Assembly (NCBI GenBank): GCA_030737835.1
Contig: CM060852.1
Location: forward strand, 23,111,868-23,175,867
Source: Acorus gramineus
Taxonomy: Eukaryota > Streptophyta > Magnoliopsida > Acorales > Acoraceae
Direction: 5' to 3'
Length of the DNA stretch: 64,000 nucleotides
In this document: positions 161 through 56,948 of the stretch, in pieces
Numbering within the stretch: the first letter of the stretch is position 1
Layout: each line of letters opens with the position of its first letter
Position numbers and translations under genes: made by a program
Notes under the pieces: generated by a model
Seen by the model: only the letters and a program-made list of their open reading frames with translations
Database searches by the model: none
What the model was told of the DNA's origin: nothing

Positions 161-994
161 AAAAATCCATATAACCCCCTGTAATCACCCCTCTATATCC
201 ATAAAACCCCCTCCGTCTGCATTCCGTCCATCTGTTTAACGGGGCAGGGGGTTATATGGATTTATGGCAGATTACAGGGGGTTATATGGATTTTTGTCAT
301 TTTTTTTTTAATTTTCTTTACGTGTGGTTTAAAAATTAGACTGTTTAACATTTAGTTTTGAATTTTTTTTCAAGATACCACGCACCTTTAATTTTAATAA
401 AATAAAAAGGGTTATTCAGATTATAAACACATACAAGATCACCCACCAAAGAGATAGAAGTAAAAGAAAATGAATTTTGTAACAAAAAGTGTGTAACATC
501 AACCAACAAATTTTCAAAAATGCGAATTATGTTTTTTATTAAATCTTGGGGCACCTCTTGTGTTGGTGTCATGAGTAAATTTTGTTGGGGATAAACTGTA
601 CGTGGAGGAGTAGTTTTGGGTTCTTTTTTGAAATATCAAAAGAAAAAGTATATATCTCTTTTACTTCTATCTCTTTGACGGGTGATCTTGCATGTGTTTA
701 TGATCTGAATAATCTTTTTTTTTTATTAAAATTAAATGTGCATAGTATTTTGAAAAAAATTTAAAAGTAAATATTAAACAGTCCAATTTTTAAATCACGT
801 ATAAAGAAAATTAAAAAAAATGAGAAAAATCCATATAACCCCCTGTAATCTGCCATAAATCCATATAACCCCCTGCCCCGTTAAATAGACGGACGGAAGG
901 CGGACGGAGGGGGTTTTATGGATATATTGGGGTGATTACAAGGGGGTTATATGGATTTAGGCCAGATTTAAGGGGTTATATGGATATTTCCCCC
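157..994. mobile_element. Nested palindromic (foldback) element inside a TA microsatellite
   Basis: The ends are inverted copies of one another: AGGGAAAAATCCATATAACC at 157 and its near complement ending in CCCC at 994. Each end is itself a hairpin: the unit CCATATAACCCCCTGTAATC near 167 returns inverted near 270-295, and the same arrangement is seen at about 823-994. The two halves of the middle (about 302-480 and 640-822) are also inverted copies, including a GATAGAAGTAAAAG segment. No convincing open frame for a transposase is present. TA repeats on both sides fit insertion into TA-rich DNA, as known for Stowaway and Micron-type MITEs. The superfamily is not certain. It ends about 190 bp before the start codon of the methionine-salvage gene. 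Confidence 0.8.
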
Positions 995-1184
995 ATATAT
1001 ATATATATATAACCGTACAACCAATAACCGCGAAGCATCTGATTCGCTGGACAGCATAACTCATCCCTTCCGGTTCCAGTCTCCAGACGTCCCAGTCACT
1101 CGACGGAGCGAAAAAAAAAAGAAGAAAGAATTAAAGCTTTCGAAGAACCGAAACCTTCGCAGAGTCACAGAGACACCCAAAAAA
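995..1184 (+). promoter_or_regulatory. Probable core promoter and 5' leader of the methionine-salvage gene
   Basis: This 190-bp stretch contains a TATA-rich run (995-1011), a CCAAT motif at 1021-1025 and a purine-rich leader before the ATG at 1185. The transcription start cannot be placed by eye. The palindromic element forms its upstream border, so any further promoter elements lie inside or beyond that element. Confidence 0.4.
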
Positions 1185-11706
<10,522 letters not shown>

Positions 11707-13685: not shown

Positions 13686-14372
13686 TCACGAATCCGAATC
13701 CGCCGTCACCGTCGCCGTCGCCCTCGGCGACGTGACGGGGAACAACGGGAGCAGCCGCGGCGGCGGCTCGGCCCCCCTCGGCGACGGGTGGAGGTAGTAC
13801 CCTTTCTCGGCGATAGCCCTCTCCTCCGCCGTCGCCGCCGCCGCCGTTGCATTCGGAGGTCCGCCGGTTATCGGAGACGCCCTATTGAACGGGTCGGAGA
13901 CCAGAGGCGTGACCGGGCTGAGAACCAGCGACGGGAAATCGAGGATGCTCGGCGAGAGGATCTCCGGCGGGTGCAACTTCCGCGGGGAGAGACCGGCGCC
14001 ACCGCGGCAGGCGGCGGCGGCGGCGAGGGGGCTGAGCTTGAACCCGTTCTTGAGGCTGCTCCGCCTCTCGTAGAGCTTGAAAGACGGCTTCTTGGGGCCG
14101 GTGGGGATTGGGTTCTTGATTGGGGGCTGATCGGATGGGGGTTTGGCGGTGGAGGAGCCGGTGAGCATCTGGACGACCTGCTTGAAGGAGGAGGTGTTGG
14201 CCTGGACGAAGGTCGTTGGGTATGGATTCGATTCGAATCTTGGTGGGTTTGTTGTTGTTGGGGGTTTTGCACCACCTCCGACGAATCCGCCATTGGAGCT
14301 GCTGCTGGTGCTGCTGCTTGGGGAGGTTTGGGTTTGTGGGTTCTCTTGGGGAGGTCTTCTTGGGCGATCCAT
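13686..14372 (-). CDS. VQ motif-containing protein
   Basis: Single-exon gene of 228 aa, a normal length and structure for plant VQ proteins. The VQ core FKQVVQMLTG is at residues 63-72 (F63, V67, Q68, T71, G72), preceded by PTTFVQANTSS. VQ proteins are nuclear cofactors that bind WRKY transcription factors through this motif. The C-terminal half has many Ser/Thr-Pro sites (LSPRK, LSPSILDFPSL, LSPVTPL, TSPRA) and the ending LLPLFPVTSPR, which matches the VQ4/VQ13/VQ31/VQ33-type group whose members are MAP kinase substrates. An N-terminal Ser/Gln/Pro tract and an Ala run (about residues 117-122) are low complexity. The GC-rich coding region contrasts with its AT-rich surroundings. I chose the ATG at 14372 because it gives the typical N-terminus; an upstream overlapping frame is not VQ-like. 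The exact paralogue is uncertain. Confidence 0.95.
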   Translation of the reverse strand: MDRPRRPPQENPQTQTSPSSSTSSSSNGGFVGGGAKPPTTTNPPRFESNPYPTTFVQANTSSFKQVVQMLTGSSTAKPPSDQPPIKNPIPTGPKKPSFKLYERRSSLKNGFKLSPLAAAAACRGGAGLSPRKLHPPEILSPSILDFPSLVLSPVTPLVSDPFNRASPITGGPPNATAAAATAEERAIAEKGYYLHPSPRGAEPPPRLLPLFPVTSPRATATVTADSDS

Positions 14373-14600
14373 TGATGTGGGGGGTTGTTGTTTTTGTTTT
14401 TTGGGGGATCAAAATCTCACCTTTGGTTGTTGAAGATGGGTGTTTTTTTCTTCTCTCCTGGTCGGTCTCTCTCTCTCTCTGTGACACTATTCACCTGTTC
14501 ATCTCTGTACAGGATGGAAATGTGAGAGGGAGGGGGGGAGGGGTTTTAATTTTTTTTTAATTTTTTGGGAGCTCACATTGACTTTAAAGGGGGATGGGGT
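14373..14600 (-). promoter_or_regulatory. 5' leader and proximal promoter of the VQ gene, with W-box
   Basis: A GA/CT-rich leader (about 14467-14482) precedes the start codon. A W-box TTGACT occurs on the plus strand at 14578-14583. WRKY factors bind W-boxes and VQ proteins partner WRKYs, so feedback control is plausible but inferred from one short motif. Confidence 0.35.
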
Positions 14601-27280: not shown

Positions 27281-27552
27281 AAAAGATACACTCAGCCCCT
27301 ATTGCAATTCATCCCGTTTTTCTTTTTAAAAAAAATTATACACTCACCTTTTGAAATGCATGCTATTATATGAAATGAAGTGTATACTGAGATACATTAG
27401 TGCATTTTTTTCATGATGAAAAAATGAAAAAAAATATGAGTCGTATACAATGATATGACTCATACACTATGATAGTGCGGTATATACTACGTTATCATAG
27501 CGTATAGGGCTGCAAAACGGGCTACAAAAAAGACTGCGTGTATCAGCGCTCT
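27281..27552. repeat. Dispersed repeat D, copy 1 (probable MITE)
   Basis: It shares with 34917-35215 the order: AAGATACAC start, CATCCCGTTTTTCTTTTT, a TGCTATTATATGAAATGAAG block, repeated TATGATAGTG and CTATGATAG motifs, and a GGGCTG-A-AAACGGGCT ending. The TATACACT/TATGATAG motifs make the middle partly self-complementary. Non-coding. Confidence 0.7.
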
Positions 27553-30848: not shown

Positions 30849-31085
30849 AGTGACGGATTCTCAAACTTTTCTAATCATTAAGAATGAAATCAAATATATA
30901 AAAAAATACCACATACCAAACGGACCCAGGAGCAATGTAACAAATAGAGTTTGACAATGCTCTAGAATTTAGTCGACTAGGCTGGATCATATGAGCGGGT
31001 TTCAATTCCATATTTTTTAAACCTGCGCAGGGCTGGAATCGACTTCAAGTCGATGGCCTATCTACTTCTCGATCCGCCTGATGGG

Positions 31086-31211
31086 TGTTAAATGTATATA
31101 TATGTTAGGGTTAAGGGTATATTAGTCTTTTCCTTGTTTCCCTTTTTGTACTATAAATATTGGATATAAACCCTAATAATATGATTGATTCATTCTTTTC
31201 ATATTCTAACA
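31086..31211 (+). repeat. 5' LTR of copia copy 1 (126 bp)
   Basis: Begins TGTTAAATGTATATA and ends CATATTCTAACA, giving the TG...CA ends of an LTR. It matches both LTRs of the second copy. It contains a TATA-like CTATAAATATTGG. At 126 bp it is far shorter than typical copia LTRs. Confidence 0.93.
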
Positions 31212-31223
31212 TGGTATCAGAGC
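31212..31223 (+). promoter_or_regulatory. Primer-binding site (initiator tRNA-Met)
   Basis: TGGTATCAGAGC directly follows the 5' LTR. This is the standard plant copia primer-binding site, complementary to the 3' end of initiator methionine tRNA. Confidence 0.93.
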
Positions 31224-31493
31224 TTGAATCCAATTTTTTTCTTTGATCGTCAACGTCCCGTCGCCCCCGTGCCGCTTGCCGCTGTGCCGCCGTCGCACCG
31301 TTGCTGCTCCGCCGTTGTGCCGCCGCTGTGCCGCCCCGCGCCGCCCTCTTGCGCCGCCTCGCGCAGCCTTACCGCTGCTGTGCACCGCCCTGCCGCTGCC
31401 CTGCCACCGCCCTGCACCGCCCTGCCGCCGCCCTGCACCACCCTGCCGCACCGCCTCGCACTGCTGCGCCACCCTGCCGCGCCACCCTGCCCT

Positions 31494-31620
31494 GTCCGCG
31501 CCGTGCCCGCGCCCCGTCCGCGCCGTGCTCGCGCCCCGTCCGCGCCGTGCCCGCACACCGTCCGCGCCCTGTCCGTGCCGTGCCCGCACCGTCTGCGCCG
31601 TGCCCGTGCACCGTCCGCGT
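31494..31620 (+). repeat. 22-bp GC-rich tandem repeats in the copia leader
   Basis: Units of GTCCGCGCCGTGCCCGCGCC type start at 31494, 31516, 31538 and 31560, then become degenerate. They lie in a very GC-rich leader (31250-31900) in otherwise AT-rich DNA. Every frame stays open by composition, which creates spurious Pro/Ala/Arg-rich frames on both strands. Confidence 0.85.
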
Positions 31621-32105
31621 CTGCCTGCGCGTCGTCTCGGAATTGCGTGATCAGCGCGGATCCGCGCCGATCAGCCCGGATTTCCTGGGGTTCTGTCCCG
31701 GATTCGGTCTCGGACAGCATCCCGGATCTCCCGAGAATTTGTCCTGAGATCCCGTGCTTCGCGCCCACGCGCGCCCGACCCAGCACCCGCTCGCCCGACC
31801 CGGCTCCAGCTGCCCGACGGCCCAGCTGCCCGACTCGGCTCCAGTGCCCGACCGGACCCGGCTCCAGCGCCCCGACCCGACCCGACCCGGCACTAGCTGC
31901 CTGACCCGGATCCGCGACCCGTTTACCGCCCCGTCATCGCCTTTTTCGGTATTTTCTTTATTCGGCCGCTACGGGTTCATTCGGACTCCAAATATAGTCA
32001 TATTGGTACTCATTTTGCTCCATTTTTCATTTTGCACGCATCTGTGACTATATTTTCATCATCCGAGGCATATATTTTTTCTCTGTTATTCTCTTTTTGC
32101 CTATT

Positions 32106-33113
32106 ATGGCTACGGATAACACTCAGATCATCGATGTTAAGTTTGATGGTAACAATTATGATGTCTGGTCTATTAGTCTTGAACTTCAGCTTGATTATCG
32201 TCGCCTATTGGGTCATGTACTTGAACCATCTCCACCGGGTTCTGATGAGACCACCATCAAGGCCAGAGCTGAGGCGTATACTAAGGCTTTGTTGACATGG
32301 AAGGAGGCCGATTCTCGGGTGAAAGCTTATATTGCTTCTTCGGTTATTCCAAATATCCGTAAACATTTGAAGCCGTTCATTACAGCCAAGGAATATTGGG
32401 ACTTTCTGAAGAATTTCTATACGCAGACCGATGGTGCTCAGGAATTCTATCTACATCAGACCATTTCTACTTCTTATCAAGGGGAGCTTTCTATTCATGA
32501 TTTTTATTATCTTTTGTCTGATTATTGGGATCAACTCGCACCTATGGATCCTCAGATGGAGGGTATTTTTCTGACACGCTATCGTGAGTACCGTAATCGT
32601 CAACGATTGTACCAATTCTTGATGCGTCTTCGTCCTAAGTTCGAGGCTATTCGTGCACAGATTCTTCATCGTTCTCCCAAACCGTCTCTTGATACGGTTC
32701 TTTTTGAGTTAGTTGCTGAGGAGACGCGTCTTCGCACTGTTGTCACTCCGCCTATCGTTGATCACAGTTCTGTCAATGTTGCACATCGTCAAGATAATTG
32801 CTACACTCGGGTCACTTGCTATTATTGCCATAAATTTGGACACGTGCAATCTGAATGTCGTAAGCGTGCTCGTGATGGTGCTCCTCTTGTTTATGTACCT
32901 CGCACTTCAGCCCCTGGAGCACTTCCTCCAGCACCTCGTCCACTAGATCCTGCAGCATCACGTGCACTAGCGCCTCGGGCGCAAGCACCTCGGGCACCTT
33001 CTACAGTTCCTCCACGTCGCTCTCAGCCTCGACCTGCAGCTGCTGTTGCATCTGATTTTCCTACTGATCCGCCGGCATATTCTTCCTCTCAGATCACTGA
33101 GAGTCTTGCGTAG
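32106..33113 (+). CDS. gag: Copia Gag polyprotein (capsid plus zinc knuckle), copy 1
   Basis: 335 aa from the ATG at 32106 (MATDNTQIIDVKFDGNNYDV), the usual start of plant copia Gag. The capsid (UBN2-type) region covers about residues 10-230, and a CCHC knuckle CYYCHKFGHVQSEC lies near residues 237-250. The tail is rich in Pro and Ala (APRAQAPRAP) and may be a linker. The frame ends with TAG at 33111-33113, but the same frame continues straight into protease sequence. The stop therefore looks like a mutation that split a single Gag-Pol reading frame. It packages element RNA in the cytoplasm. Confidence 0.88.
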   Translation: MATDNTQIIDVKFDGNNYDVWSISLELQLDYRRLLGHVLEPSPPGSDETTIKARAEAYTKALLTWKEADSRVKAYIASSVIPNIRKHLKPFITAKEYWDFLKNFYTQTDGAQEFYLHQTISTSYQGELSIHDFYYLLSDYWDQLAPMDPQMEGIFLTRYREYRNRQRLYQFLMRLRPKFEAIRAQILHRSPKPSLDTVLFELVAEETRLRTVVTPPIVDHSSVNVAHRQDNCYTRVTCYYCHKFGHVQSECRKRARDGAPLVYVPRTSAPGALPPAPRPLDPAASRALAPRAQAPRAPSTVPPRRSQPRPAAAVASDFPTDPPAYSSSQITESLA

Positions 33114-34510
33114 CTCCACCTTCAACAACAACAGCTTCAAGATATGCTTCGCTCAGTGACTGGTAGTGATTCATCTGCTCCCTTTTCTGCTTCTACTGCG
33201 GCGACAGGTAACCTTACCTCCTCATGGATTCTTGATTCTGGGGCTTCCCATCATATGACTTCTCAGGCATCCTTTATTAGTTGTCCTACTCGCGTGTTTC
33301 CCACTCCTGTTATTCGTACGGCAGATGGGACTCCTCTGTCTGTGTCGAGTTCTGGTTCTCTTGCTGATCCTTCTCATCGATTTCAACTTCCTGATGTTTT
33401 TCATGTTCCTGGTCTATCACTAAATTTGCTTTCTGTTGGTCAAATTGCGGATCATGATTGTCTCATTACTTTTGATTCTTCTACTTGTTCTGTACAGGAT
33501 TGTCGTACGGGGAAGCAGATTGGGACAGGCTCTAGACGCGGTGGGCTCTACTACATGGATCACCTTCATATTCCTTCATCTTCTGCAGCTTCTGCTCGCT
33601 TGATTTCTTCTTCTCCTTCCTCCTTTGATGTATGGCACCGCCGTCTTGACCATCTCTCTCCTCCAAGACTTCGTTATCTAATAAGTACCGGTGTTTTAGG
33701 TTCCTTTTCAAAAACTGAGCTTCAACCATGTGTGGGCTGCAAGTTGATAAAACACTTGGCTCTTCCATTTCCTACTAGTAAACACATTTCTGCTTCTCCT
33801 TTTGATCTAGTTCACTCTGATGTTTGGGGTCCCTCCCCTATTCCTTCTAAAGGGGGTAACCGTTATTATGTTATTTTTATTGATGATTTTTCTCGCTTTA
33901 CCTGGATATATTTGATGCATAGTCGTTCTGAGTTGTTACCCATCTATAAATCTTTTGCTACAATGGTTGAAACTCAGTTTTCCAAACGCATCAAGGTGTT
34001 TCGCTCTGATTGTGGGGGGGGAATATTGTTCTCGTGCTTTTCGTGATTTTTTATCCTCCCAAGGCACTCTACCACAGCTTTCCACTCCTTATGCTCATCA
34101 GCAGAACGGGGTTGCTGAGCGCAAACACCGTCATATCCTCGAAACGACCCGGTCCTTACTCCTCTCTGCTTCTGTTCCTGTTCAGTTTTGAGGTGAGGCT
34201 ATTCTTACAAGTGTGTATCTCATCAATCGCACTCCGTCGTCTATCACTGCTGGCATCTCCCCCTTTCACCGTCTTTATCATAGTCCTCCTGATTATTCTC
34301 GTCTTCGTGTTTTTGGATGCACGTGTTTTGTCCTACTTCCTCCTCTTGAGCGTACCAAATTGTCTCATCGTTCCACTATGTGTGTTTTTCTTGGGTATAG
34401 TAATGAGATCAAAGGATATCGATGCTATGATCCCGTGGGAACTATGGTTTTTTTTAGATATTTCTATTTTATTCTGGATCATCTCATCTCCACTCAGATC
34501 TGTATAACTC
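33114..34510 (+). pseudogene. pol: Copia protease-integrase fragment, copy 1
   Basis: The protease active site WILDSGASHHMT is at 33225-33260. The integrase zinc-binding part has WHRRLDHLS and CVGCKL, followed by catalytic core motifs HSDVWGPSP, IDDFSRFTW, RSDCGG and HQQNGVAERKHRH. Breaks: a frameshift in a G run near 34012-34021, and a TGA at 34189-34191. Homology stops near 34500, before the reverse transcriptase. It is non-functional. Confidence 0.9.
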
Positions 34511-34540
34511 TTTTCATAATGAAATCGGTTGATAGCAGTT

Positions 34541-34916
34541 ATCTATCTTCTTTTAAAAAAAACTTGCATTGGAGGGTTGAACCATGCAAGTTGGATGTGA
34601 GTTTTAAACTTGAAATCTGGCCTAAATTAGATATTATAAAAAAATCATAATTTTTTTCTGGTTGAATTTCCGACCAAAACCATTTTACATGTCTTATATT
34701 AATTTGATTAACTGAAATATTATTTATATTATATATTTTAAGATGTTTTGAATCAAATGTTTTATTTGATGTATGTAGAACGTAATTTTTTTATGATAGG
34801 AATAATTTAATTTGCTAGATAATATTTTTTTTTATTACATTATCTTGACCCAAGGGTATATATGAATTTCAAGATGTAAAATTCAAGATGTAACCATACA
34901 TTTATAGAGTTAAGAA
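34541..34916. other. AT-rich spacer, nothing recognised
   Basis: Sequence between the truncated copia element and repeat D copy 2. No coding or repeat signal that I can support. Confidence 0.5.
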
Positions 34917-35215
34917 AAAAGATACACGTAGTCCCATTGCAGCCCCAATTGCAGTCCATCCCGTTTTTCTTTTTTCATAAAATTATACATTTAATCTTTG
35001 AATGTATGCTATTATATGAAATGAAGTATATATTGAGATACATTAGTATGATTTTTTTTATTGTGATAAAATGAAAAAAATGGACTGTAGTATATACTAT
35101 GATAGTGCAGTGTATAATTTAATAGTATAGTATATACTACATTATCATAGAATATGAGGTTGTAAAACGGGCTGTAATGAAAAACGGACTGCATGCATCA
35201 GCAGCACCCGCTAGA
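34917..35215. repeat. Dispersed repeat D, copy 2 (probable MITE)
   Basis: Similar along its length to 27281-27552. It starts AGATACACGTAGTCCC and ends with AAACGGACTGCATGCATCAG. The two ends share GCAGTCC and CCGTTTTTC in inverted orientation. It ends only about 50 bp before the promoter motifs of the snoRNA gene. Confidence 0.7.
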
Positions 35216-35259
35216 GTTAAATATTGTGTATATAGATTGGGTTTGGGTTACATCAAACT

Positions 35260-35425
35260 TGAGCCCATCCCAGTAACAAGGGTTCAAGGCTCTCTGTATA
35301 TGAGACATAAAATGCAGGGTGCATTCGTCATTTTGCACCTCCAATGATCTGATGGATCCGACGGTTGATATCCATCTGAGAAATCTAGGGTTTTTTTGGT
35401 TTTGGTTTTCCTTGCTATAAAAAGG
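35260..35425 (+). promoter_or_regulatory. Promoter of the snoRNA unit: site II, telobox, TATA
   Basis: A site II core (GCCCA at 35263-35267, TGGGC on the other strand), a telobox TAGGGTTT at 35386-35393 and a TATA box TATAAAAA at 35416-35423 lie in that order. Site II plus telobox is the known promoter signature of plant ribosome-biogenesis genes, including independently transcribed snoRNA genes. The TATA box is about 150 bp before the snoRNA, leaving a leader that would be trimmed. Confidence 0.65.
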
Positions 35426-35488
35426 TGATGTTGTTGGTGGCTGTCTCTGGGGCATGAGTTCTCCAATTCTCTCTCTCTTACTCTGTTA

Positions 35489-35491
<3 letters not shown>

Positions 35492-35518
<27 letters not shown>
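35492..35518. repeat. (ATT)n microsatellite in the snoRNA precursor leader
   Basis: ATT trinucleotide run between the TATA box and the snoRNA. Confidence 0.9.
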
Positions 35519-35519
<1 letters not shown>

Positions 35520-35563
35520 TTGTGGGTTTGATTGTTGTTTGATGTTTTGGGTATCCAAGATTT

Positions 35564-35653
35564 GAGGCCAGTGATGAAAGATATATTGAGTTGCAAATGA
35601 TGGAGTTTCATGTGATTCAAATACTATTATCGCTACGTTCTTTCTGAGCCCTC
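35564..35653 (+). ncRNA. C/D-box snoRNA guiding 2'-O-methylation of 5.8S rRNA (A47)
   Basis: Box C GTGATGA is at 35571-35577 and box D CTGA at 35644-35647. The flanks GAGGCC and GCCCTC form a short terminal stem. A possible D' (TTGA, 35586-35589) and C' (ATGATGG, 35598-35604) lie between. The guide TCGCTACGTTCTT at 35630-35642, directly before box D, is complementary over 13 nt to plant 5.8S rRNA AAGAACGUAGCGA. The fifth base upstream of box D (35639) pairs with the A that I count as A47 of 5.8S, a known plant 2'-O-methyl site (I recall the guide being called snoR9, but did not check). The RNA would act with fibrillarin in the nucleolus. About 90 nt is a normal length. Confidence 0.82.
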
Positions 35654-36238
35654 TCTTCATCTTTTTTTCTGTTGTTATTTTTTTGTTTTTTGTGTTTTTG
35701 TTAATTTTTTCTGTTGTTATTGTCTAAAAACTTGTATTTCATGTTTATGCATTATTTCTTTCAATTCCATGTATATGAAATTTTCATGATTACAGTTTTT
35801 GTGAGTTTTTGGCACATATTCCATCACGGTACACCTGTGTTTTTTTTTTTTTTAGATCATATATATCACACCTAATGATTTATGTATTTTAGAAAAGATG
35901 AAGTACACATTTGAATGATATTATTATAAAAATATAAAAAAATTTAACTAGTATGTTTTTATGTTATTTTGTACTGGACAAAATCTTTGTTTGTAGGATC
36001 ATATTTCCTGAGGGGTAAGCGGTAACGAATGAAAATGATTTTAGAATGGATTTTTTTACTAAGCCTAGATTTTGAATAAATGCAAATCTTATTTACTAGC
36101 CAGAGTTATATAACTTGTTACAATGAGTGGAAGGGTTGTAAAAAAGATTGAGTATACTGTGTGTTTTTTTTAGTAGCGATGCCTAAAGGTAAGAGTTTAG
36201 ATCCCATGTCTTATTTGAGTCTTCTTTGGGATTATAAC
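35654..36238. other. Downstream of the snoRNA, no gene seen
   Basis: T-rich sequence follows the snoRNA and could include its precursor 3' end. No further box C/D pair or protein frame is convincing. Confidence 0.45.
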
Positions 36239-36477
36239 ATGTAGGGTGTAGAAGAAAAAAAAAATGCACCTTCTACAATGCTGTTATATGTGGTATTTAT
36301 CCCAATTAATCACACAATAATTAGGGTGATCAAAGCATATGTTTGAATTTATATTTGATCTTTAAATAACAATTTAAAAATATGCATTAATCACTTTCAA
36401 TTATTGTATGATTAATTGGGATCAATGTCATGTATGGTAGCATTGTAGAAGATGTATTTTTTTTTGGCTCCTACATA
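36239..36477. mobile_element. Foldback MITE with about 85-bp inverted repeats
   Basis: The left arm ATGTAGGGTGTAGAAG through CTTCTACAATGCT and CCCAATTAATCACACAATAATT is repeated inverted in the right arm (AATTATTGTATGATTAATTG, GCATTGTAGAAG, CTCCTACAT). Arms leave a short loop near 36360-36395. Non-coding. Confidence 0.8.
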
Positions 36478-36654
36478 GATTTTTGGTTATGGACGGCGAG
36501 TATGGATTGATTTTTTTTATAACTAATATTGGATTTTTTTTTCATTTAAAAAAAAGAGTGAATAAGTATAGATAATGTGAGCTAGTAGGTTATGATTTTA
36601 GGATGCCCACCTAATCCTTTGTTTGTCTCTAATTTTACTAGGATCTGCTTGACT

Positions 36655-36801
36655 TTATGTGTAAGGCCTTCACGTCAAATATTTTATATTACACAGTTAA
36701 AAATATTTTACATCACACATCAAATATTTTACATCAAGTTGATTTTTAACTGTGTGAAGTAAAATATTTAACATGGTAACCTTACATAGAAAGTCAAGCA
36801 T
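36655..36801. mobile_element. Small foldback MITE (TGCTTGACTTT family), copy 1
   Basis: The ends TGCTTGACTTTATGTGTAAG and CTTACATAGAAAGTCAAGCA are inverted repeats. Inner TTACACAGTTAAAAAT and ATTTTTAACTGTGTGAA also pair, giving one long hairpin of about 147 bp. Confidence 0.8.
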
Positions 36802-37324
36802 GTCATAATAAAATTATAGTCAAGCAGAGTATCCGGTCTCATGCATCGGAGGCTTTTGAGAAATTAGATTAGATTTTACCTGGTTCGATTGTGAAAAAAA
36901 ATAATAATTCATGCAACAAAAAGTGGCCCTAAAATTAGAGCATGGGAAATGCAACTTTTTGATTATTATTGTGATTGATCCATTGATATACTATTAATGG
37001 GTAACCATAAACCTAGAAAAAGAACAAAGGTAAAGCCTGACTTTTGAACACCATGTTTGGGTACATACATAACTATGGAATTGGGTGGAGTAGGATGAAA
37101 TAAGGTTAGAAATGTTGTTTGGATGACTAGTATTGGCTGGAATTTGGATGCTGAAATAAGCAAGAATAAAGAGGTATAGCAATACCACCAACCCCCTTGG
37201 AATTCTCTTATTCCATCCTATTATATAAGTGGGGCCCACATATTTTTTTTCCCCACAGTTCACCCCTGTTGTTTAATTTGGACCGGGTTTGAATCTTTTT
37301 GCTTGTTTTTATATACTTGAATCA

Positions 37325-37450
37325 TGCTTGACTTTCATTGTAAGACTACCAATCACATTGAAAAACAGATGGTTGTAAATGCATGTGATTTTAAAAAGAA
37401 AAAAATATATTTCACTTGATGCATTTACAACCACATGATTAGCCAAGCAA
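37325..37450. mobile_element. Small foldback MITE (TGCTTGACTTT family), copy 2
   Basis: Begins TGCTTGACTTTCATTGTAAG like copy 1 and ends AGCCAAGCA. Inside, TGGTTGTAAATGCAT (37370-37384) and ATGCATTTACAACCA (37419-37433) are a perfect 15-bp inverted repeat. It lies immediately upstream of the zinc-finger pseudogene. Confidence 0.65.
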
Positions 37451-37501
37451 GATACAAGTATGAATAAAACAAGTAGAAGACCATTATCGTCTCCATTAAA
37501 G

Positions 37502-40350
37502 ATGAAGAGGATCGAAGAGACCCACTGTGATGGCCCGTGTCCCAAACCCTCGACACGTGCCTCAAAACTCACCATTCTTTTATATATATATATATATATA
37601 TAAAAACATCGAAATAACCACTCTATATGGATAACATATAATCATCAAGAAATATATAATCACATATATAAACTCACCCAGAAAAGTTTAAGCAGTCAAC
37701 ATAGCATCTAACACACCTCATATACAGTCATCCATATATGTAGAGCATTTTAACATAGGCATGGTTCACTAGACCAGCCTCTACAAAAAATAATCATATA
37801 CAGATCCAAAACATCAACAATATCCATATCTATATATATATACCTATCACCAACTGGACGTGGCCCCCAAAAGAAGACAAAGTCAACGCCTAGGAACCCC
37901 CGCCTCTACTCTGCAAAAAATAGGAAAATAGAATAGAATGAGCGAAAGATGCTCAGTAAGTAACCCAGACATTCCACGCATAAGGAAAATAAGGATGACA
38001 TCAAAGTCAAGCTTCATCAACATCAGGTCAATGCATAATAACAATTAAAAGTACTGTATGATCATTAGTGGAGAACAATAACATCGCTGATATATAAAAA
38101 TAGGAATGAATAGCTCAAATGAACACATCACAACTGATAAGACCAATAAATATCATCAAGAAGCAACACCACTAGACTGAAGGCACATACTCTGAAATCA
38201 CCCATCAAGCAAAGAAAGTCAATTAACTCATTGATGGCACTTTGAGATGTCACAATTCTACAAGAATGATAAGGGAATCACAACTCTGGCCCCTGAATGA
38301 CCGAAGCGCAGGATAGACCATCTACATGACCACCCCATCTCGGCCCCTATGTTTGAGATGTCCACATCTATACCTCTCGCATGTGACCCTCGGAATATTC
38401 ACCACGGAATCACTACCTGGCCCTTGAAATGTCCAGGCACGGCAGGGTATTCTCAAATCCCCCTTGTTGGACCGTACGTACTCATGTGCGCTGGGGAGGT
38501 AATCCTCAACCCTCACTGTAAGGTCTATGGTCATCCAACTCCAAGAATACAAATTCAAGAGGTAATATACAAAGCAATGAAACACACACAATATAAGGCT
38601 TCATGGTCGGACAGCACAACCATGCTGATCATAGATCAATGGCAAGACACTGGAATGGATACATCATGATCAAAGGAAGGCTCACAAATCAACTATAGAT
38701 TTAGAACTCTCAAAAACTGTCTAGAACAAGGATAAATGACAACGATTAGATAATGATGATGAATCACGAAGCAAACCTTAATAATCACACTTCAAAGACT
38801 AATCTGAACTGGGATAACATAAACCACACTCTCGAATGATAATTGAATTATAGTGGATAAATATGAAGCAAGCCTCAATGAGAAACAATTCTAATTAATA
38901 AAGATGACATGAATAATTCTGCGTCTCAACAATATAGTATAGTAACCGACAATAGTTAGTTTTACGAACAAATAGGGATAAAAACAGTTTTGAATATCAA
39001 ACAATATCAGAGATGATAAAAACAACAATGAAGCGCGGAATTGGAAATAGCAAACACAAATATTGGGTCACTTACAACAATACTACGTGGAATGGAATGT
39101 AGGACAAACAAATATTGATCGGGTTACTTACCTCGCAATTCACCACCTCAACTGGACTCACCCTATTCCAACTCTTAAAACAGGCAGAGAGGAAATCCAC
39201 TGATAAAAATATAATCTCAATCAGATACTAACATATAATCCTAATAATCAAGAAATTCTCATTTTCCCCCGAATCAAATCCGATGTCCTAAATACAAGCC
39301 CTAAGTTAACACAATAAAAATAACTCTCCAATTCTTATTTACCCAGCCCCAAAAATAAATTCATATTTCAGTCCCACATCACAATTTTTAATTTAGAACT
39401 AAAATAGAACAACCCTAGATGAAGAATAACGATGAAAAGAACAAGAATCCTTACCCAGTATGACACGAAAAATATTCCATGAAGCTTTTCCTAATTTTTC
39501 CCCTTTTATTTTCCCTTGGAATAGAGTCTCGGGTGACTCTTCCTCTCTCACATATCACCCACGCCACCTCCACCGACTAACCACTTATTTAAAACTTTAG
39601 ATTCCGTCAAATGACGAAAATGCCCTCCTTTAGAATTCTGCGCAGCCTCAACTCTAACCGCCATAACTTCTCGTAGGAAAGTCCACTTCAAATGATTCAA
39701 CTTCTGTTGGAAAGGTAACGAAAATATCTACAACTTCTATGTCTAGACCAAGATCAAAAGAAGCCTCCAACTATATTAAAAATAATGACAAACAGAAGAC
39801 CTTGCAATTTCTTCTTCTATGGGCATAAATGGTAAAATAGCCATAACTTTTCTAATATAGCTCCAAATGACACCAAACTAATTTTATATGAGAGATAACT
39901 CAAAAATGAAGACTTCATATGTTTAGCGCAAAACCCAATTATGCCTCGAAGGTGCTTTCTGAAAATGTAACCAAATGCAAGGCTTCAATAATAATAAGGA
40001 CAAAAAGCTTAATAACATAAACTTATCATATTTTACAATTTAAACACGTAAATATTAGCATAATTCGGCATAAGAGGGTCCGGGCTATTACACCCACGGT
40101 GGGCACTATGCGAGCCACAAGAAACTAAGTTCCGCGCCATCTAACCACAGGAAATCGGTCGTTTTCGCCATCGTTGTGGAGGATGACAAGTCTCTCTCTG
40201 TCAGGAGCTGGCGCTGCCACCGTCGCTATGTCTTCGAGGGTCCACAAGTGCTCTGTATGCGGCTTAGAGTTCTCCTCAGTCCATTCCATCGGTAGCCACA
40301 TGAGGCGGTTGAGGGATGTGGAGAGGTGGAAGGCAAGATCATGGTGTTGA
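37502..40350 (+). pseudogene. C2H2 zinc-finger (ZAT-like) gene remnant split by a solo LTR
   Basis: With the inserted LTR and one duplication copy set aside, the flanks read across the junction into GGHYASHKKLSSA, the second half of a plant QALGGHRASHKK-type finger (40098-40130). About 110 bp later, in a different frame, KCSVCGLEFSSVHSIGSHMRRLR (from about 40243) is a second C2H2 finger in which the QALGGH signature has decayed to HSIGSH; a TGA follows at 40348-40350. The MRRxR ending and two-finger layout resemble stress-related ZAT repressors (ZAT11/12 type). The first half of finger 1 is missing, the fingers are frameshifted and there is no EAR motif, so it is dead. Confidence 0.7.
37526..40092. 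mobile_element. Solo LTR (2.57 kb) with a perfect 5-bp target duplication
   Basis: It begins TGTGATGGCCCG and ends CGGGCTATTACA, which are imperfect inverted repeats with TG...CA ends. It is flanked by CCCAC at 37521-37525 and 40093-40097. It has no gag/pol coding between these ends, so the most economical reading is a solo LTR left by LTR-LTR recombination. The TGTRATRGCCCG-type ends and length suit a large Ty3/gypsy LTR, but the family and orientation are inferred. It contains a (TA)n run at about 37580-37602. Confidence 0.82.
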
Positions 40351-42599: not shown

Positions 42600-45500
42600 C
42601 ATAGTTTTAAATAGCGATCAATATATCGTTTTCACCGACGAAAACGCTAATTCGCGGGGATTCGTGAAGGATTATCGAAATCACGCTGACGCCAGCATGA
42701 TGTCAGCGCATATATCGTCGATATATCGACTAGTCGGGTCGGGTGGCCAGTCCGACTCGACTGCGTATTTTTATTTTTTTTTTAAATTGGCTATGAAGTC
42801 GTTGGGGCCCCAACGCCTATATTTTTTTGTCATTCTTTCCCCAATCCTATAAATACTCTCTCAAACCCCCCCATCAATATTTTTTTTTTTTTTATCCTTC
42901 TTTTCCCAATCCTATAAATACTCTCCCAAACCCCCATTCTCACAACAACAACTCAATACACTTCTTCTCTACCATTCAATCACTCTCAATCTCTCATACA
43001 ATCTCTAGTTCTCTACTATCTCTTTTAGTAAACAATTTTTCCCAAGATCCCTTAATCCCAAAAGAAACCAAAAATCCAAAAAAAAAAAAAATCCAAAAAT
43101 CCATAAAAAATCCAAAAAATTCCTATCTTGGTGGAGATATTGGTGGACTACTTGGAGGACTTTGGTGGAGTTCTTGGAGGCTTTTGGTGGAGACTTTGAA
43201 GGCTTTTGGAGGAAAACTACTCCTCTTTCAATTTTTTTCCTATTTTTAGAGGTATTTATTCTTTGCACTTAGTAGAGGTTTTTTAGAAAGTAGTTAAAGT
43301 AGCATCATCCACTTAATTAAATAATTAATATTTAATTTTTTGAAACCTAAAAAATCTTTTTTTTTTTAAATGTCTTCTTCTGGAGCTAGTTCATTTAATC
43401 TAAGACCGGCTAATACCCTGCATGGAAATATGGTGAATATAAAAGTGCTACTGAAAAACATATAGTCAAATGTTTACTTTGCTCACATCTATGTAGTGGT
43501 GGCATAACCAGACTCAAAGAACACATATTGCATTCACCAGGAGCTAATGCTAAACCTTGCCCTAGAACAACACCAGAAATTAGAAAAGAAATAGAAGAAT
43601 TCATGAATAAAAAATCTGAGAGTAAATGTAGAAGAGGTTCATTTTATTCTGAAGATTTTGCTAGAGACATAGGAGATCAACCACATGTAGGTGATGATGA
43701 TGTAATAGAAATTGGTGGTCCTAGTTCAAGGCCTCCTCCATCCAAACAAAGAAGGAAAAACACTAGAGGTCCTATGGATTTATTTTGTAGAGGTAATGTT
43801 GAAGATGTAGTTGATCAAAGATTAAGAGGAGGCCCTGGACAACAAACAACTTTAGAAAATAGATTAAAAAAAGAAGAAAGGAAAAATGCAATTCAAAAGA
43901 TAGCTAGATGGGCAATCACTGCAGGTGTATCTTTTCATGCATTAACTTCACGTTCTTTTCATGTTGCATTAGAAGCAATAGGTAGATTTGGGTCTGGTTT
44001 AGCCCCACCATCAATGCATGAGATAAGTGAAACATGTTTGCAAGAAGAGGTAAGAGAAACTCATAAGATTTTAGAGATACATAAAGGACATTGGAAAACT
44101 TATGGTTGTACATTAATGTGTGATGGATGGACTGACAGAAGACAAAGATCATTAATTAACTTTTTAGCTAATTCTCCAAAAGGAACCATGTTTTTGAAAT
44201 CCATTGATGCATCTGCACATTCACACACTGCAATATTTGTTTAAAGAAATAAATGATGTTATTGAAAATATTATTAAAAGAAAATGTTGTTCAAATTGTA
44301 ACTGATAACGCTGCTAATTATAAAGCTGCATGTGAATTAGTGATAGAGAGGCACCCCACAATATTTTGGACACCATGTGCTGCACATTGTATTGATTTAA
44401 TTTTGGAAGACATTGGAAAGATGCATATTAGAACTATTAGTTTAGCTAGAAGAATCACTGTTTTCATTTATACACACACAATTATTGCACTGCATGAGAT
44501 TGTTTTGCAATGGAGATATTGTTAGGCCAGGACCCACTAGATTTGCCACATCATTCTTAACTTTGCAATCACTTTGGGAACATAAGAATGCACTTAGGAC
44601 ACTCATGGTAGCAGATGAATGGACCAAGAGCAAGTGGTGTAACCTTAGAACCGGAAAACAAACAGAAAGAACTATTCTTTCTGTTCAATTCTGGAAAGGT
44701 GTACAACGAGCCCTTCACGCTGGAATTCCTCTGGTCCATGTCTTGAGATTAGTTGATGGAGATGAAAGCCCTCTATGGGCTACTTATACAATGCAATGGA
44801 TAAGGCCAAAGAAAAAATTAAGGAAAACTATCAGTACAGACCACTGCAATATGGCTCTGTTATTGAGGTAATAGAAGGAAGATGGAGTCGTCAGATGTCG
44901 TCTGACCTTTACCATGCAGGATTTGTCCTTAACCCCGGAGTATGGTTTAAGACCGCGGACCGGGACGCGGCAGTCCAAACACATATGCTTCGTTGTGTGC
45001 AGGCAATGGCGAAGATGGAGCCAGATCCGGAGGTGCAAGACAGACTGCAAAAACAACTGGATTATTATTTACAGGAAAGTGAACCGTTCAGTTGGGGAAC
45101 CATCGTGAGAGCAAGGGACAACACAATCCCAGTCAATTGGTGGGATAAATACGGGGGCGAGGTACCAGAGTTGAGGAAGGTCGCCATCAAAATTCTTGGA
45201 CTCACTTGTTCATCTTCCGGTTGTGAGAGAATTTTGGAGCGCATTTGAAAATGTGAGTTGTCCTTACAAATTTATGAAGTACGATTTTTAAAATTTATCT
45301 ACTTTATAATATCTCACTTTAATTTTCTTGCTTTTAACAGTTACACACCAAGAAGAGGAATCGGTTGAAGCAAAAGAAGTTGAATGATTTGGTGTTCGTG
45401 CAATACAATAAAAAAATTGCATGAGCGTTTCCTAAATCTTCAACGTAACCCAGCACATGAAGATCCAATCAATTTGGATTCATTGGAAGACGACAACGAG

Positions 45501-46175
45501 TGGATTATGGATGTCGACGGCCCAGTATTCCAAGGTGAAGACTTGACATGGTCTCAAGTGGAGCATCAAGCATACGGCGACACCATAGAACATCAACGCC
45601 CGAGACGATCCACGCAGCAGACTCAACAATCTGAAGGTGCAAGACGACGTGGAAAACGGCCAATCATTGAGGAGCCTGAAGATGAGGATGACGACGATGA
45701 TGAAGAAGACGAAGTCATCCCTGCAACACAATTTCAGGGCCAAGAAGGAGTTGAATCATCAGATGAAACAAGAGATGTGGATAATGAAATTCAAGAAGAA
45801 GACACAGATTCGGATGACAACAACGGTGGACACGGCGGCAACGATGGTGGTGGCACCTCTTATGGTTATGACACACCATTAGGTGGAACACAGGGAGGGG
45901 ATTTTGTAACCAATGCAATGGATTATCTATTTAAATGAAATTTCTTCACTTTTATAGTTTTATGTTGTAATTAATTAGTTATGCATTTTTATTTCAAACC
46001 AAAACCATTGTAAAATTATTAATATCTTCATATGAAATTATTCTTATTCATTTTCATTATTTTCCACAATTTTTTATCATTTTTTTGCTTTTTTTTAATT
46101 TTTTTTCCATTTTTTTAAAAAAAAAAAAATTTTCGGCCAATCGATATATCGGTTAAATCGATATTTAAAATATTA
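42600..46175 (+). mobile_element. hAT transposon (DUF659 class), full length, inactive
   Basis: Flanked by 8-bp direct repeats CATTTTAC (42592-42599) and CATTTTAT (46176-46183) with one mismatch, the size typical of hAT. The ends are short imperfect inverted repeats (CATAGTTTTAAATAGCGAT on the left, ATCGATATTTAAAATATTA on the right), with subterminal CGATATATCG-type motifs at both ends (about 42714-42730 and 46140-46152). It encodes one transposase, now broken by several frameshifts. Length 3576 bp. Confidence 0.88.
43370..45938 (+). pseudogene. hAT transposase with BED finger, DUF659 and hAT C-terminal domains
   Basis: Starts MSSSGASSFNLRP, then shifts frame into a BED-type finger (KCLLC ... 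RLKEHI, about 43468-43530). The DUF659 part includes YGCTLMCDGWTDRRQRSLIN (about 44100-44160) and VTDNAANYKAA and CAAHCIDLILEDIGK (44300-44425). The hAT dimerisation region VNWWDKYGGEVPELRKVAIK to TCSSSGCER runs to about 45235. An intron with GT/AG borders (45253-45340) precedes HTKKRNRLKQKKLNDLVFVQ. An acidic, Gly-rich tail ends at 45938. Frameshifts lie near 43420, 44235, 44280, 44500, 44780, 45225 and 45410, so no active protein is made. It would have cut and re-inserted the element in the nucleus. Confidence 0.9.
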
Positions 46176-50464: not shown

Positions 50465-52103
50465 AGCCTTAGTCCGATTAATAATTGAAATCCAATTTAA
50501 TAATACATACAAATTTCCAATCAATTCACTGGTTGGACTCATAATTCTTGGAGTATCAACTATAGTGGTTTGAACCATGTCAATTCTAATAAAAAAAAAT
50601 CAGTTGTATTTGTTAAAAAAATTAGAATTCATAGAACTGGAGTCTGTCCAATTTCTAGACCATGGTTCAGACGACATTTTATTTATCCAATGGTCTGGGT
50701 GAGTGAAATGTTGTCCCCAAATTTGTATGATCATATCTCTTGGGATTGGTCTTGTATCTATAAATATTGGATGAGTGTTGCCTATAAAAGGGTTTTTCAA
50801 GCCTCTTATATCGTAAATTCTAGTGATTTGTGGTATGTTGACAAGGTTGTCCTAAAAGTTGAATTTTTTGAATGGGCCGTAAGAAAAATTCTAAAGCGGG
50901 ACCTCATACATCATTATATAAAAAAAATCTATATTGTTTCGATCTTATACACTATCAATATTACTAAATAGATACACAATGTTATATAATTATTTAAATT
51001 AAATCATTATACAATATCATATGCACTTCATAAAACAAAAAAACAAAAAAATTTACAAATTGAAATGTCTATTGGATTATGGTTGGAGAGATTTAGGGGA
51101 AAAAAAATTTATGATTGATTTTGAGAATATCAAACAGATTGAGAAAGTTAGTTGAAAGGGATTAATTAAAGTAACACATCTCACCCTACATTTTATTAAA
51201 TACAACTAAATAGATGGTTTTTAGGGGCTCTAAGCAATTACCATGGTAACCTTGCCTTAGGGCCAGCTCTATATGTGGAGAGTATCTCTCGATGGGGAAT
51301 CACATAGATTCTTTTTTTTTTTTTTTTTTAAGAAAACAGGAGACATATCTATTTCAGTAATGAAATAGCAGATGTTCGAATTGGTGGTGAGAGGATAAGA
51401 GGACATCAAAACAAGAGAGAATAAAGTAAAAACCCAATGAGAGCCGGTGAAACACGGTAGATAAGAAACGTAGATTTCTTTGTTCCTATTGGGAATGCTT
51501 GTATTTAATTTATCTTAATGGATCTATTATCACTATAAATCCGATCTCGATTAAGTTTTTTTCCTTGCAAGTGTTGTTAGTGATTTTCAAAATGTATTTT
51601 TATTTATCTTGTAAGTTTGTGTTTTATGTTTATAACTTTGTGTATTAGGTTTTAGTCCTACATCGGTAAAGAAAAAAAATTTATGCACTATATAAAGTAT
51701 AGTATGTATAAAGTATTGTTTCCTCTATCAATGGCAAGATGTTATGCACAAGCACCGTTAGCGCATGAGCGCGATGGTCGCAATGTGACGCTTTGTTGGC
51801 GCACTTGACACTTGAAATCTAACGGTCTAGATTGGAGGTGATTGAGTCTCATTAGATGCCTTGAAAGGGTATTCCAATATCTATTAATAGGCATGGTTTC
51901 TAACCATTCAAACCACTTCCAAAATTATAAAAGACTTTCTTTTTCTCTAAACTTTGTTCCAGTATTGGATTTCTGCAGAACTTAATACTTGGGCAAATAT
52001 TTTCTAAAGGTGAGTGACACAGTAACGTGACTTAAAGGGTTCCAATGAAATCTCGGTCCTAATCACAATTGCATCATATTAGAACTAGTACACAACAAGA
52101 ATG
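50465..52103. other. Intergenic region; possible LTR or snRNA-type promoter remnant
   Basis: The 50570-50971 frame (133 aa) is not recognisable. At 51655-51665 GTCCTACATCG matches the plant snRNA upstream element (RTCCCACATCG) with one mismatch, and TATATAAA follows at 51689-51696. Similar ACATCGG motifs also occur in LTR starts, and the GC-rich block at 51745-51810 looks like retroelement DNA. I cannot decide between them. Confidence 0.35.
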
Positions 52104-52230
52104 TGTTAAATGTATATATATGCTAGGGTTAAGGGTAGATTAGTCTTTTCCTTGTTTTCCTTTTTTGTACTATAAATATTGGGTACAAACCCTAATAATA
52201 TGATTGATTCATTCTTTTCATATTCTAACA
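52104..52230 (+). repeat. 5' LTR of copia copy 2 (127 bp)
   Basis: TGTTAAATGTATATATATGC to CATATTCTAACA. It contains CTATAAATATTGGG as a TATA-like element and AACCCTAATAATATGATTG near the 3' side. Confidence 0.95.
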
Positions 52231-52241
52231 TGGTATCAGAG
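52231..52241 (+). promoter_or_regulatory. Primer-binding site (initiator tRNA-Met)
   Basis: TGGTATCAGAG directly abuts the 5' LTR; the next bases differ (TTT instead of C) from copy 1. Confidence 0.9.
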
Positions 52242-52390
52242 TTTGAATCCAATTTTTTTCCTTGATTTTTTGTTGGCGATACTCTCCGTTCGGAGATCGT
52301 CGACGCTCCGCTGTCCGTCGTTCTGTTCGTGTCACCCACGCGTAGCCCCGCCGCTGCCCCGCACTTATCCGCAGCCCCTGCCGCTGCCCC

Positions 52391-52541
52391 GCGCAGCCCC
52401 GCCGCTGTCCCGCGCAGATCCGCTGCCCCCGCAGCAGCCCCGCGCAGCCCCACCACTGTCCCGCGCAGATCCGCTGCCCCCGCAGCAGCCCCGCGTAGCC
52501 CCGCCGCTGCCCCACGCAGATCGGCTGCCCCCGCCACAGCC
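52391..52541 (+). repeat. 51-bp GC-rich tandem repeats in the copia leader
   Basis: Three units start at 52391, 52442 and 52493, each with GCGCAGCCCC, CGCGCAGATCCGCTGCCCC and GCAGCAGCC. The repeat differs from the 22-bp array at the same place in copy 1. 51 bp is 17 codons, so frames stay open and produce spurious long frames on both strands. Confidence 0.88.
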
Positions 52542-53278
52542 CCGCCGCTACCGCAGCCCCTGCAGCAGCCCCCGCCGCCGCCGCCGCCCCGCCGCTGCAG
52601 CAGCCCCTGCCACCCTGCTGCCACCCTGCTGCCGCAGCCCCGCAGCCCCTGCCGCAGCCCCGCAGCCCCTGCCGCAGCCCCGCGCAGCCCCTGCCACCCT
52701 GCTGCGCCGTCCAGCGCTGCCCAGTCCCCCACGCGCGCACAGTCCGCGCCGTGCCGGCTCCCTGCCCGCGCCCCTTCCGCGCCCTGCCCGTCCACGCGCC
52801 GTGCGCGCCCCGTCCGCGCCGTGCCCGCACACCGTCTCCGCCCTGTCCGCGCACTGTCCGCGTCTGCCTCCGCGTCGTCTCGGAATTGCGTGATCAGAGC
52901 GGATCCGCATCGATCAGCCCGGATTTCCTGGGATCCTGTCCCAGATTCGGTCCCGGACAGCATCCCGGATCTCCCAGGAATTTGTCCCGAGATCCCGTGC
53001 TTCGCGCCCGCGCGCGCCCGGCCCAGCTGCCCGACCCGGCTCCAGCGCCCGACCCGGTTCCAGCGCCAGCTGCCCGACCCGGTTCCGCGGCCCGACCCGT
53101 TTGTCGCTCCGTCATCGATCTTTCGGTATTTTCTTTATCCGGCCGCTACGGGCTCATTCGGACTCCAAATATAGTCATATTGGTACTCATTTTGATCAGC
53201 TTTTCGTGATCTACGCATCTGTGACTGTTTTGGATCTATCAGATACTGTTTATTTTGATCTATTGCTGTGCAAGTACT

Positions 53279-56200
53279 ATGGATTGCAGATATTGTCACT
53301 CCTTTGGTCATGTGACCCTCGATTGCCGCAAGTTGGCTAGAAAACGTGCTCGAGATGCCGCTTTCTCTTTATCAATCCAGTCGTCTACTCAATCTTCTCT
53401 TTGTCAGGATCAGATATGTACATCAATTGCACCTCGCGTTGCTTCTGCTCAGTCACAGTTTACCACAGCTCACCTTATTGCACATTTAAAGGGGCTACAA
53501 GATCAATATCAACAGCTTTATGTTATGTTACGATCATTGACTGGTATAGATCTTTCTGGTTCTGTTCAGTCTGCTTCTACTCCCGTACCAGGTATACCGA
53601 TTACCTCATGGGTTCTTGATTCTGGGGCTTCCCATCACATGACATCGGATGCATCGATTCTTGTTAATTGTACACCACTCCGTTCTCCTTCACTTATTCG
53701 CACTGCTGATGGTTCTCCTATGTCTGTCTCGAGCTCTGGCATTCTTTCTGATCATTCTCATCGATTTAATGTGCCAAATGTTTTGCATGTTCCTAAACTT
53801 TCCATGAGTTTGTTTTCTGTCAGTCAACTTGCTGACCTTGGTTATACGATCACATTTGATTCATCATCTTGTTCTGTTCAGGATCGACTTACTGGGAGAC
53901 GGATTGGGACTGGGCGACGACAAGGTGGACTCTATTACATGGATCAGCTTCATGTTCCTCTGCCTTCCGCTGCTTCTGTGCAGTTAGATACAAATTCCCC
54001 TTCCCCTTTCGATCTTTGGCATCGTCGTCTTGGTCATTTGTCTCAGCCTAGACTCCGATATCTTGTTAGCACCGGTGCATTAGGATCATTTTCTCGCACG
54101 GATCTTCAACCATGCGTGGGCTGTAAATTGGGTAAGACAGTGGCTCTTCCTTTCCTTCCAGTTCGCATATTTCAGATTTAGTCTTTTCTGATATTTGGGG
54201 TCCGTCTCCTATTTTTTCAAAAGGGGGAAATCGATATTATGTCATTTTTATCGACGACTATTCTCGTTTCACTTGGATTTACCTTCTCTCTAGTCGTTCA
54301 GATTTATTGCGTATTTATACTTCTTTTGCTACCATGGTTGAGACTCAATTTTCTCGTCGTATTAAGGTGTTACGCTCTGATTGTGGTGGTGAATATTGTT
54401 CTAAGGCTTTTAGTGAATATTTGACATCCCAAGGCACCCTTCCTCAGTTTTCCACTCCTTATGCTCATCAACAAAATGGCGTTGCTGAGCGTAAACACCG
54501 TCACATCCTTGAGATGACTCGATCTTTACTTCTTTCTGCATCCGTCCCTGTTGAGTTTTGGGGTGAGGCAGTTCTCACAAGTGTGTATCTCATCAATCGC
54601 ACTCCGTCATCTATTACTGGTGGTATCTCACCATCTGAGCGGCTTCACAATCAGCCACCTGATTATTCTCGTCTTCGTGTTTTTGGTTGCACATGTTTTG
54701 TTCTTCTTCCTCCCACTGAACGTACCAAGCTTTCTCCTCGTTCTGCTATGTGTGTTTTTCTTGGATACAGTATTCAACATAAGGGTTACAAGTGTTATGA
54801 TCCTATTGCACGACGTCTTCGCATTTCTTGTCATGTCACATTTTGGGAGCATCATCCTTATTATGCTCTTCGCTCACCTCCGGCTCCACTTCCTCCGTCT
54901 ACTGTTGATGACCTTATTTTTCTGGATTTCTCTACTCCTGAGTCATCCCCATCGTCTATCCCACCGGCTTCTATTCCTTCATCTGTCCCATCTACGACCT
55001 TGCCATCCCCTATATCTCCTTCTTCGGATGATTCATGTGAGCCGAGTCCCCCTGTTGTTGCTCCTGCGCCTGATGTTGTTCAACCAGTAGTCGACCATGC
55101 CCCGGCAGTCGACCCCGCATCAGCAGTCGACCATACACCAGCAGTCGACCCCGCACCGGTAGTCGATCCCGCACCAGTTGCTCCTCGTCGCAATCCGCCT
55201 CGCGCTCGTCGACCTCCTCAACGACTTAGCTTGGTTGCCTCTGATTCTTTTTCTCCTAGTTTTCAGTGTTTTCTTTCAGCTGTTTCCACTCACTGGGAGC
55301 CCCAATCATATCGTGAGGCTGTCGGCATTCCAGAATGGGAAGGTGCTATGGCAGAGGAGCTTAGTGCATTACAACGCACTCATACGTGGAAAATTGTACC
55401 ACTTCCTCCAGGGAAGACTCCTATCAGCTGTAAGTGGGTTTATAAGATCAAGACCAACTCTGATGGTTCGATTGAGCGTCACAAGGCTCGGTTGGTTGCC
55501 CGTGGTTTCACTCAGCAGCATGGTATTGATTATGATGAGACATTTGCTCCTGTAGCAAAGATGACAACTGTTCGTACTTTGATTTCTGTTGCTTCTGTTC
55601 GTCAATGGCCCATTTATCAGCTTGATGTCAAGAACGCTTTTCTTCATGGTGATTTATCAGAGGAGGTTTACATGACTCCTCCTCCGGGTCTTCCTCATTC
55701 ATCTGGTCATGTATGCCATCTTCACCGCGCTCTCTATGGTCTCAAGCAGGCTCCTCGTGCTTGGTTCGCTCGATTCACTGATGCTATCTGTGCTGCTGGG
55801 TTTGTTCGAGTTCCTCTGATCCAGCTTTATTTGTTCACACCTCTGGTCCTCATCGTACTATCCTGCTGCTTTATGTTGATGACATGATCATCACCGGCGA
55901 TGATTCGTCTCATATACAGTCGGTCAAGCAACATCTTCAGCGTCAATTTGAGATGAAAGATCTTGGCAAACTTCGCTATTTTCTAGGCTTGGAAGTTGCT
56001 TCTGCTCCGCGTGGTTATCTTCTCTCCCAACGCAAGTATACTGCTGACTTGATCGACCGTGCCTGTCTAACTGATGATCGCATTTCTCCCACTCCTATTG
56101 AGCTTCATGCTAAGCTCCGGCCTGACGATGGAGAACCACTCTCTGATGTTACTCGTTATAGACAGCTTGTTGGAAGCCTCGTCTATCTCACTGTCACTCG

Positions 56201-56777
56201 TCCTGACATTGCCTATGCTGTGCATATTGTCAGTCAGTTTGTCGCTGCCCCTCGTACTGTTCATTATGCAGCAGTTCTTCGGATTATACGCTATCTACGT
56301 GGCACTATATCTCGTGCTCTGCTGTTACCGTCTTCTTCTACTCTTGAACTTCGCGCTTATACTGATGCTGATTGGGCAGGAGATGTCACAGATCGAAAAT
56401 CCACAACTGGTATATGTGTCTTTCTTGGGGACTCTCTTATATCTTGGAAGGCCAAGAAACAAGACATTGTTTCTCGTTCGAGTGCTGAGGCCGAATATCG
56501 TGCTATGGCATCTGCTACTGCTGAGGTTGTTTGGCTTCGACGCCTCCTCTCTGACATGGGCGTCATTCTATCTGCGTCTACTCCCCTATATTGTGACAAC
56601 AAGAGCGCCATTCAGATTGCTAGCAATCCAGTATTTCATGAACGTACGAAGCACATCGAGATCGATTGTCACTTCGTCCGTCATCATTTTATTGCGGGAC
56701 TATATCACTCCCATATATTTCCTCATCTCTTCAGTTATCAGACTTTTTCACAAAGTCTCATACACTTCAGCGGTTGA
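53279..56777 (+). pseudogene. pol: Copia zinc knuckle-protease-integrase-RT-RNase H, copy 2
   Basis: The first ATG (53279) opens straight onto a CCHC knuckle CRYCHSFGHVTLDC, with no capsid before it. Protease WVLDSGASHHMT lies near 53613. Integrase has WHRRLGHLS and CVGCKLGK, IDDYSRFTW and QNGVAERKHRHI. The IN-RT linker carries five 18-nt repeats. RT has CKWVYKIK, HKARLVARGF, YDETFAPVAK, DVKNAFLHG and YVDD (55872-55883). RNase H has DADWAGD and SSAEAEYRAM and a CDNKSAIQIA motif, ending at 56777. Frameshifts lie near 54160 (integrase) and 55810 (RT, just before YVDD). Without capsid and with a split RT it could only move, if at all, with proteins from another element. Confidence 0.92.
55087..55176 (+). 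repeat. Five 18-nt tandem repeats in the integrase-RT linker
   Basis: Units of the form GCAGTCGACCCCGCACCA encode AVDPAP-like hexapeptides (VVDHAP, AVDPAS, AVDHTP, AVDPAP, VVDPAP). The frame is kept. Confidence 0.9.
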
Positions 56778-56803
56778 GCAAACTCTCGGTGTATGATCCA
56801 CCA

Positions 56804-56819
56804 TGAGTTTGAGGGGGGG
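56804..56819 (+). promoter_or_regulatory. Polypurine tract
   Basis: A purine-rich run ending in seven G lies directly before the 3' LTR. It is the usual primer for plus-strand DNA synthesis. Confidence 0.85.
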
Positions 56820-56948
56820 TGTTAAATGTATATACATGCTAGGGTTATTAAGGGTAGATTAGTCTTTTCCTTGTTTCCCTTTTTATACTATAAATATTGG
56901 GTACAAACCCTAATAATATGATTGATTCATTCTTTTCATATTCTAACA
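56820..56948 (+). repeat. 3' LTR of copia copy 2 (129 bp)
   Basis: TGTTAAATGTATATACATGC to CATATTCTAACA; almost the same as the 5' LTR, with a 3-bp insertion after GGGTTA and a few substitutions. Confidence 0.95.

Follow-up and report, generated by a model that had tools for sequence, protein, structure and literature searches.

Family assignment of the locus

The question raised by positions 35,260–35,653 of the DNA analysed here is whether they hold a functional gene for a small nucleolar RNA (snoRNA) and, if so, what it targets and how it is transcribed. The DNA is a stretch of 64,000 nucleotides (nt) of Acorus gramineus (GenBank assembly GCA_030737835.1, contig CM060852.1, positions 23,111,868 to 23,175,867 of the forward strand), referred to below as the window. 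An initial annotation, made from the letters of the sequence, had described the locus as a self-standing box C/D snoRNA gene with a guide to A47 of 5.8S ribosomal RNA (rRNA). We conclude that the locus probably holds a plant gene for a box C/D snoRNA of the Rfam family RF00356 that is not hosted by an intron.

The assignment is based on a covariance search of the window (Rfam cmscan), which the initial annotation had recommended against the C/D snoRNA families. The search yielded RF00356 with an E-value of 0.00085, a score above the curated gathering score and an alignment covering the whole model. At gathering score, no match besides this locus was obtained in the window. The features of the gene are as follows.

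35563–35654, plus strand: match to snoRNA family RF00356 (47.5 bits, gathering score 45, full model 1–98)
35564–35567, plus strand: 5' arm of the terminal stem, GAGG (predicted fold)
35571–35577, plus strand: box C, GTGATGA, aligned with UGAUGA of the family consensus
35630–35643, plus strand: guide to 5.8S rRNA positions 43–56 (13 Watson–Crick pairs and one G–U pair, duplex energy -21.9 kcal/mol)
35639, plus strand: D+5 nucleotide, facing 5.8S A47 (pairing count)
35644–35647, plus strand: box D, CTGA
35650–35653, plus strand: 3' arm of the terminal stem, CCTC (predicted fold)

The defining motifs of a box C/D snoRNA, RUGAUGA for box C and CUGA for box D, are thus present, and the two boxes and the 13-nt complement to 5.8S rRNA (35630–35642) of the initial annotation were all recovered. 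For the terminal stem described there, a short candidate with four pairs appears in the predicted fold. The naked snoRNA is predicted to fold with -25.2 kcal/mol (z-score -2.78), a value equalled or surpassed by 3 of 200 shuffled sequences.

Compared to the RF00356 consensus, the gene matches over its full length, and its guide and box D form a block of 18 nt without any difference, whereas the stretch between box C and the guide has diverged and the terminal stem is short. An RNA of tomato filed as snoR32_R81 is listed with expression values (PMC4575465), and the family is therefore expressed in at least one plant. The gene is an ordinary member of a catalogued plant family with the usual promoter layout. 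Genes of this kind had been said to be often missed by annotation; this does not make the gene new, because it is found at the default threshold of Rfam.

Guide and 5.8S rRNA target

The 5.8S rRNA sequence used for the pairing and for the numbering of A47 is assumed by us to be correct. The complement is extended by the G–U pair at 35643, so that the guide adjoins box D. Counting five positions from box D leads to 35639, which pairs opposite A47, the nucleotide that the initial annotation had derived from the N+5 rule. Two methylated sites have been mapped in Arabidopsis 5.8S rRNA according to the data given in PMC8053127, and A47 is one of them; for Acorus gramineus, its methylation is predicted. 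Most of the target site lies within the M1 motif CGATGAAGAACGTAGC, reported as conserved in plant 5.8S rRNA (PMC3062550). Since guide and box D are identical to the RF00356 consensus over 18 nt, the target appears as a property of the family. The Rfam match, the D+5 count and the methylation mapped in Arabidopsis all support the proposed box C/D snoRNA with a guide to A47, and judged by its sequence the snoRNA is predicted to direct methylation to this known position.

A chance origin of the guide was assessed with 200 dinucleotide shuffles, both strands, in which 5.8S rRNA matches ending at CTGA or one base before it were counted. No match of at least 12 nt occurred in any shuffle, matches of at least 11 nt occurred on average 0.01 times per shuffle, and a box C in range combined with a match of at least 10 nt was never observed. 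In the real window, the snoRNA gene was the sole site with a match of at least 8 nt in the same scan. The guide search was confined to 5.8S rRNA.

Among the Arabidopsis snoRNAs, SnoR9 is assigned as the guide of 5.8S A47 in the assignments given in PMC8053127 and would share its target nucleotide with the gene in the window. SnoR32 shares its name with the Rfam family, but the same source (PMC8053127) assigns it to U1266 and A1330 of 18S rRNA instead of 5.8S A47, which is a conflict in naming.

Promoter layout and transcription

The telo box, site II element and TATA box reported upstream of the snoRNA by the initial annotation were located by motif scan.

35262–35267, minus strand: site II element, TGGGCT
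35386–35393, minus strand: telo box, AAACCCTA
35416–35423, plus strand: candidate TATA box, TATAAAAA

These are the upstream elements of independent plant snoRNA genes transcribed by RNA polymerase II, and both the telo box and site II have been described as sitting upstream of the TATA box (PMC4660826). In Arabidopsis, telo boxes combined with site II or TEF boxes were reported at 34 of the 40 snoRNA loci that lie outside introns (PMC3022908).

The window contains five telo boxes compared to 2.88 expected (19 of 100 shuffles reach five), 24 site II elements compared to 36.06 expected and 40 copies of TATAAAAA compared to 15.45 expected. With the telo box near chance, site II below chance and TATAAAAA frequent, the single motifs are weak evidence and the layout counts for more. 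Telo box, site II and TATA box were found in combination for 384 of 126,000 position–strand combinations (0.3%), the snoRNA locus included, and a telo box within 300 nt together with a site II element within 400 nt upstream occurs in two stretches per orientation of the window, with distance limits that were picked after the locus had been seen.

The layout, together with the lack of a recognised host gene (see below), favours the independent RNA polymerase II unit put forward by the initial annotation. The family match, the boxes, the guide and the promoter-like motifs are seen in the sequence, whereas transcription, processing and methylation are inferred. RNA polymerase II would initiate about 30 nt past the TATA box, and trimming of the precursor would leave an RNA of roughly 90 nt bound by the C/D core proteins. 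Fibrillarin in this particle would then methylate the 2'-OH of 5.8S A47, which pairs with the guide at the fifth position upstream of box D.

Several observations weigh against a stand-alone gene of this family. The Rfam score exceeds the threshold by 2.5 bits only, and the sequence between box C and the guide departs from the consensus. In the motif scan and predicted fold, the four pairs of the terminal stem are separated from the boxes by 3 and 2 nt, and part of the guide is covered in the predicted naked fold. Furthermore, telo box and site II were reported together for 14 of 35 non-intronic orphan rice snoRNA genes, which is under half (PMC3022908).

Alternative explanations

As one alternative, the same promoter could start a host transcript, short or non-coding, which carries the snoRNA in an intron and frees it by splicing. 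Telo box and site II are also a mark of host-gene promoters, and of the 109 rice snoRNA loci counted in the same source, 31 (28%) are intronic (PMC3022908). By eye, GGTATCC near 35550 could serve as a donor and TTTGTAGGAT near 35994 as an acceptor, but motifs resembling splice sites are frequent in T-rich DNA. No open reading frame of at least 110 amino acids overlaps 34700–37300. Between 34700 and 38300, none of the 10 listed plus-strand frames of at least 45 amino acids gave a Pfam match to an E-value of 0.1, and the two tested of the 17 minus-strand frames of this size also gave no Pfam match. Short exons or a non-coding host are still compatible with these results; nevertheless, we regard an intronic origin as unlikely.

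A decaying duplicate, with the working copy elsewhere in the genome, would account for the small margin over the Rfam threshold and the weak terminal stem, and would fit the transposon pieces and repeats in the flanks. Most plant snoRNA families are described as having several paralogs (PMC5122169). However, both boxes are intact, as is the 14-nt guide, and a promoter layout is in place, which makes decay quite improbable. Transcription by RNA polymerase III, as for transfer RNA (tRNA)-snoRNA or U3-type genes, is extremely unlikely: a seven-T run (35662–35668) and one B-box-like match at 35282 would suit it, but no tRNA was found in the window, no A box or upstream sequence element matched the patterns applied between 35000 and 35563, and four-T runs at 35489, 35518 and 35545, between TATA box and snoRNA, are expected to stop this polymerase.

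Further copies and additional snoRNAs

For the proposed stand-alone RNA polymerase II gene, further copies and partners were sought as well. Within the window, a BLAST search with the snoRNA as query returned the gene itself and two 12-nt matches, and nothing more. For a second snoRNA in the unit, a search of 35640–37600 against Rfam to an E-value of 5 gave 22 matches, every one below gathering score. A scan for C/D snoRNAs on both strands of the window detected the snoRNA gene and one loose candidate at 38753–38807 (plus strand), which had no Rfam match at gathering score. Six viral contigs containing the 18-nt guide and box D were considered as relatives and rejected, as none of the six loci had an Rfam match at gathering score; these occurrences are taken as chance. 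The plant 5.8S pattern matched no viral contig. It seems unlikely that, in the Acorus gramineus lineage, the gene exists as one stand-alone unit only and at the same time provides the sole 5.8S A47 guide; if it were so, removal of the gene would be a clean test of the role of the A47 modification.

Genomic neighbourhood

A copia-type element, with frames extending to about 34650, lies to the left of the snoRNA gene. It is one of two related elements of this type (31083–34650 and 52103–56948). Positions 31085–31247 match 52103–52266 by 95% and 31083–31211 match 56817–56948 by 93%; these matching ends contain telo-box motifs. Internally, the DNA of the two elements matches up to 34402 in the left one (54772 in the right one), and the left element therefore looks truncated. 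Closer to the gene, a repeat at 34940–35173 recurs at 27293–27523. To the right, inverted repeats with the size of miniature inverted-repeat transposable elements (MITEs) are located at 36256–36465 and 36609–36837. Several matches to microRNA families overlapping these two stretches were weak and below threshold, and MITE-like repeats are their more likely explanation.

Farther away, 43414–45938 contains frames, the first of which has a DUF659 match; we take them to be a hAT-type transposase. A gene for a VQ-motif protein is located at 13689–14408 (minus strand); together with the copia-type retrotransposon and the snoRNA, it suggests that the window is nuclear DNA of a plant. The frame at 972–1559 (plus strand) contains the beginning of a domain of the class II aldolase type and presumably encodes a methylthioribulose-1-phosphate dehydratase.
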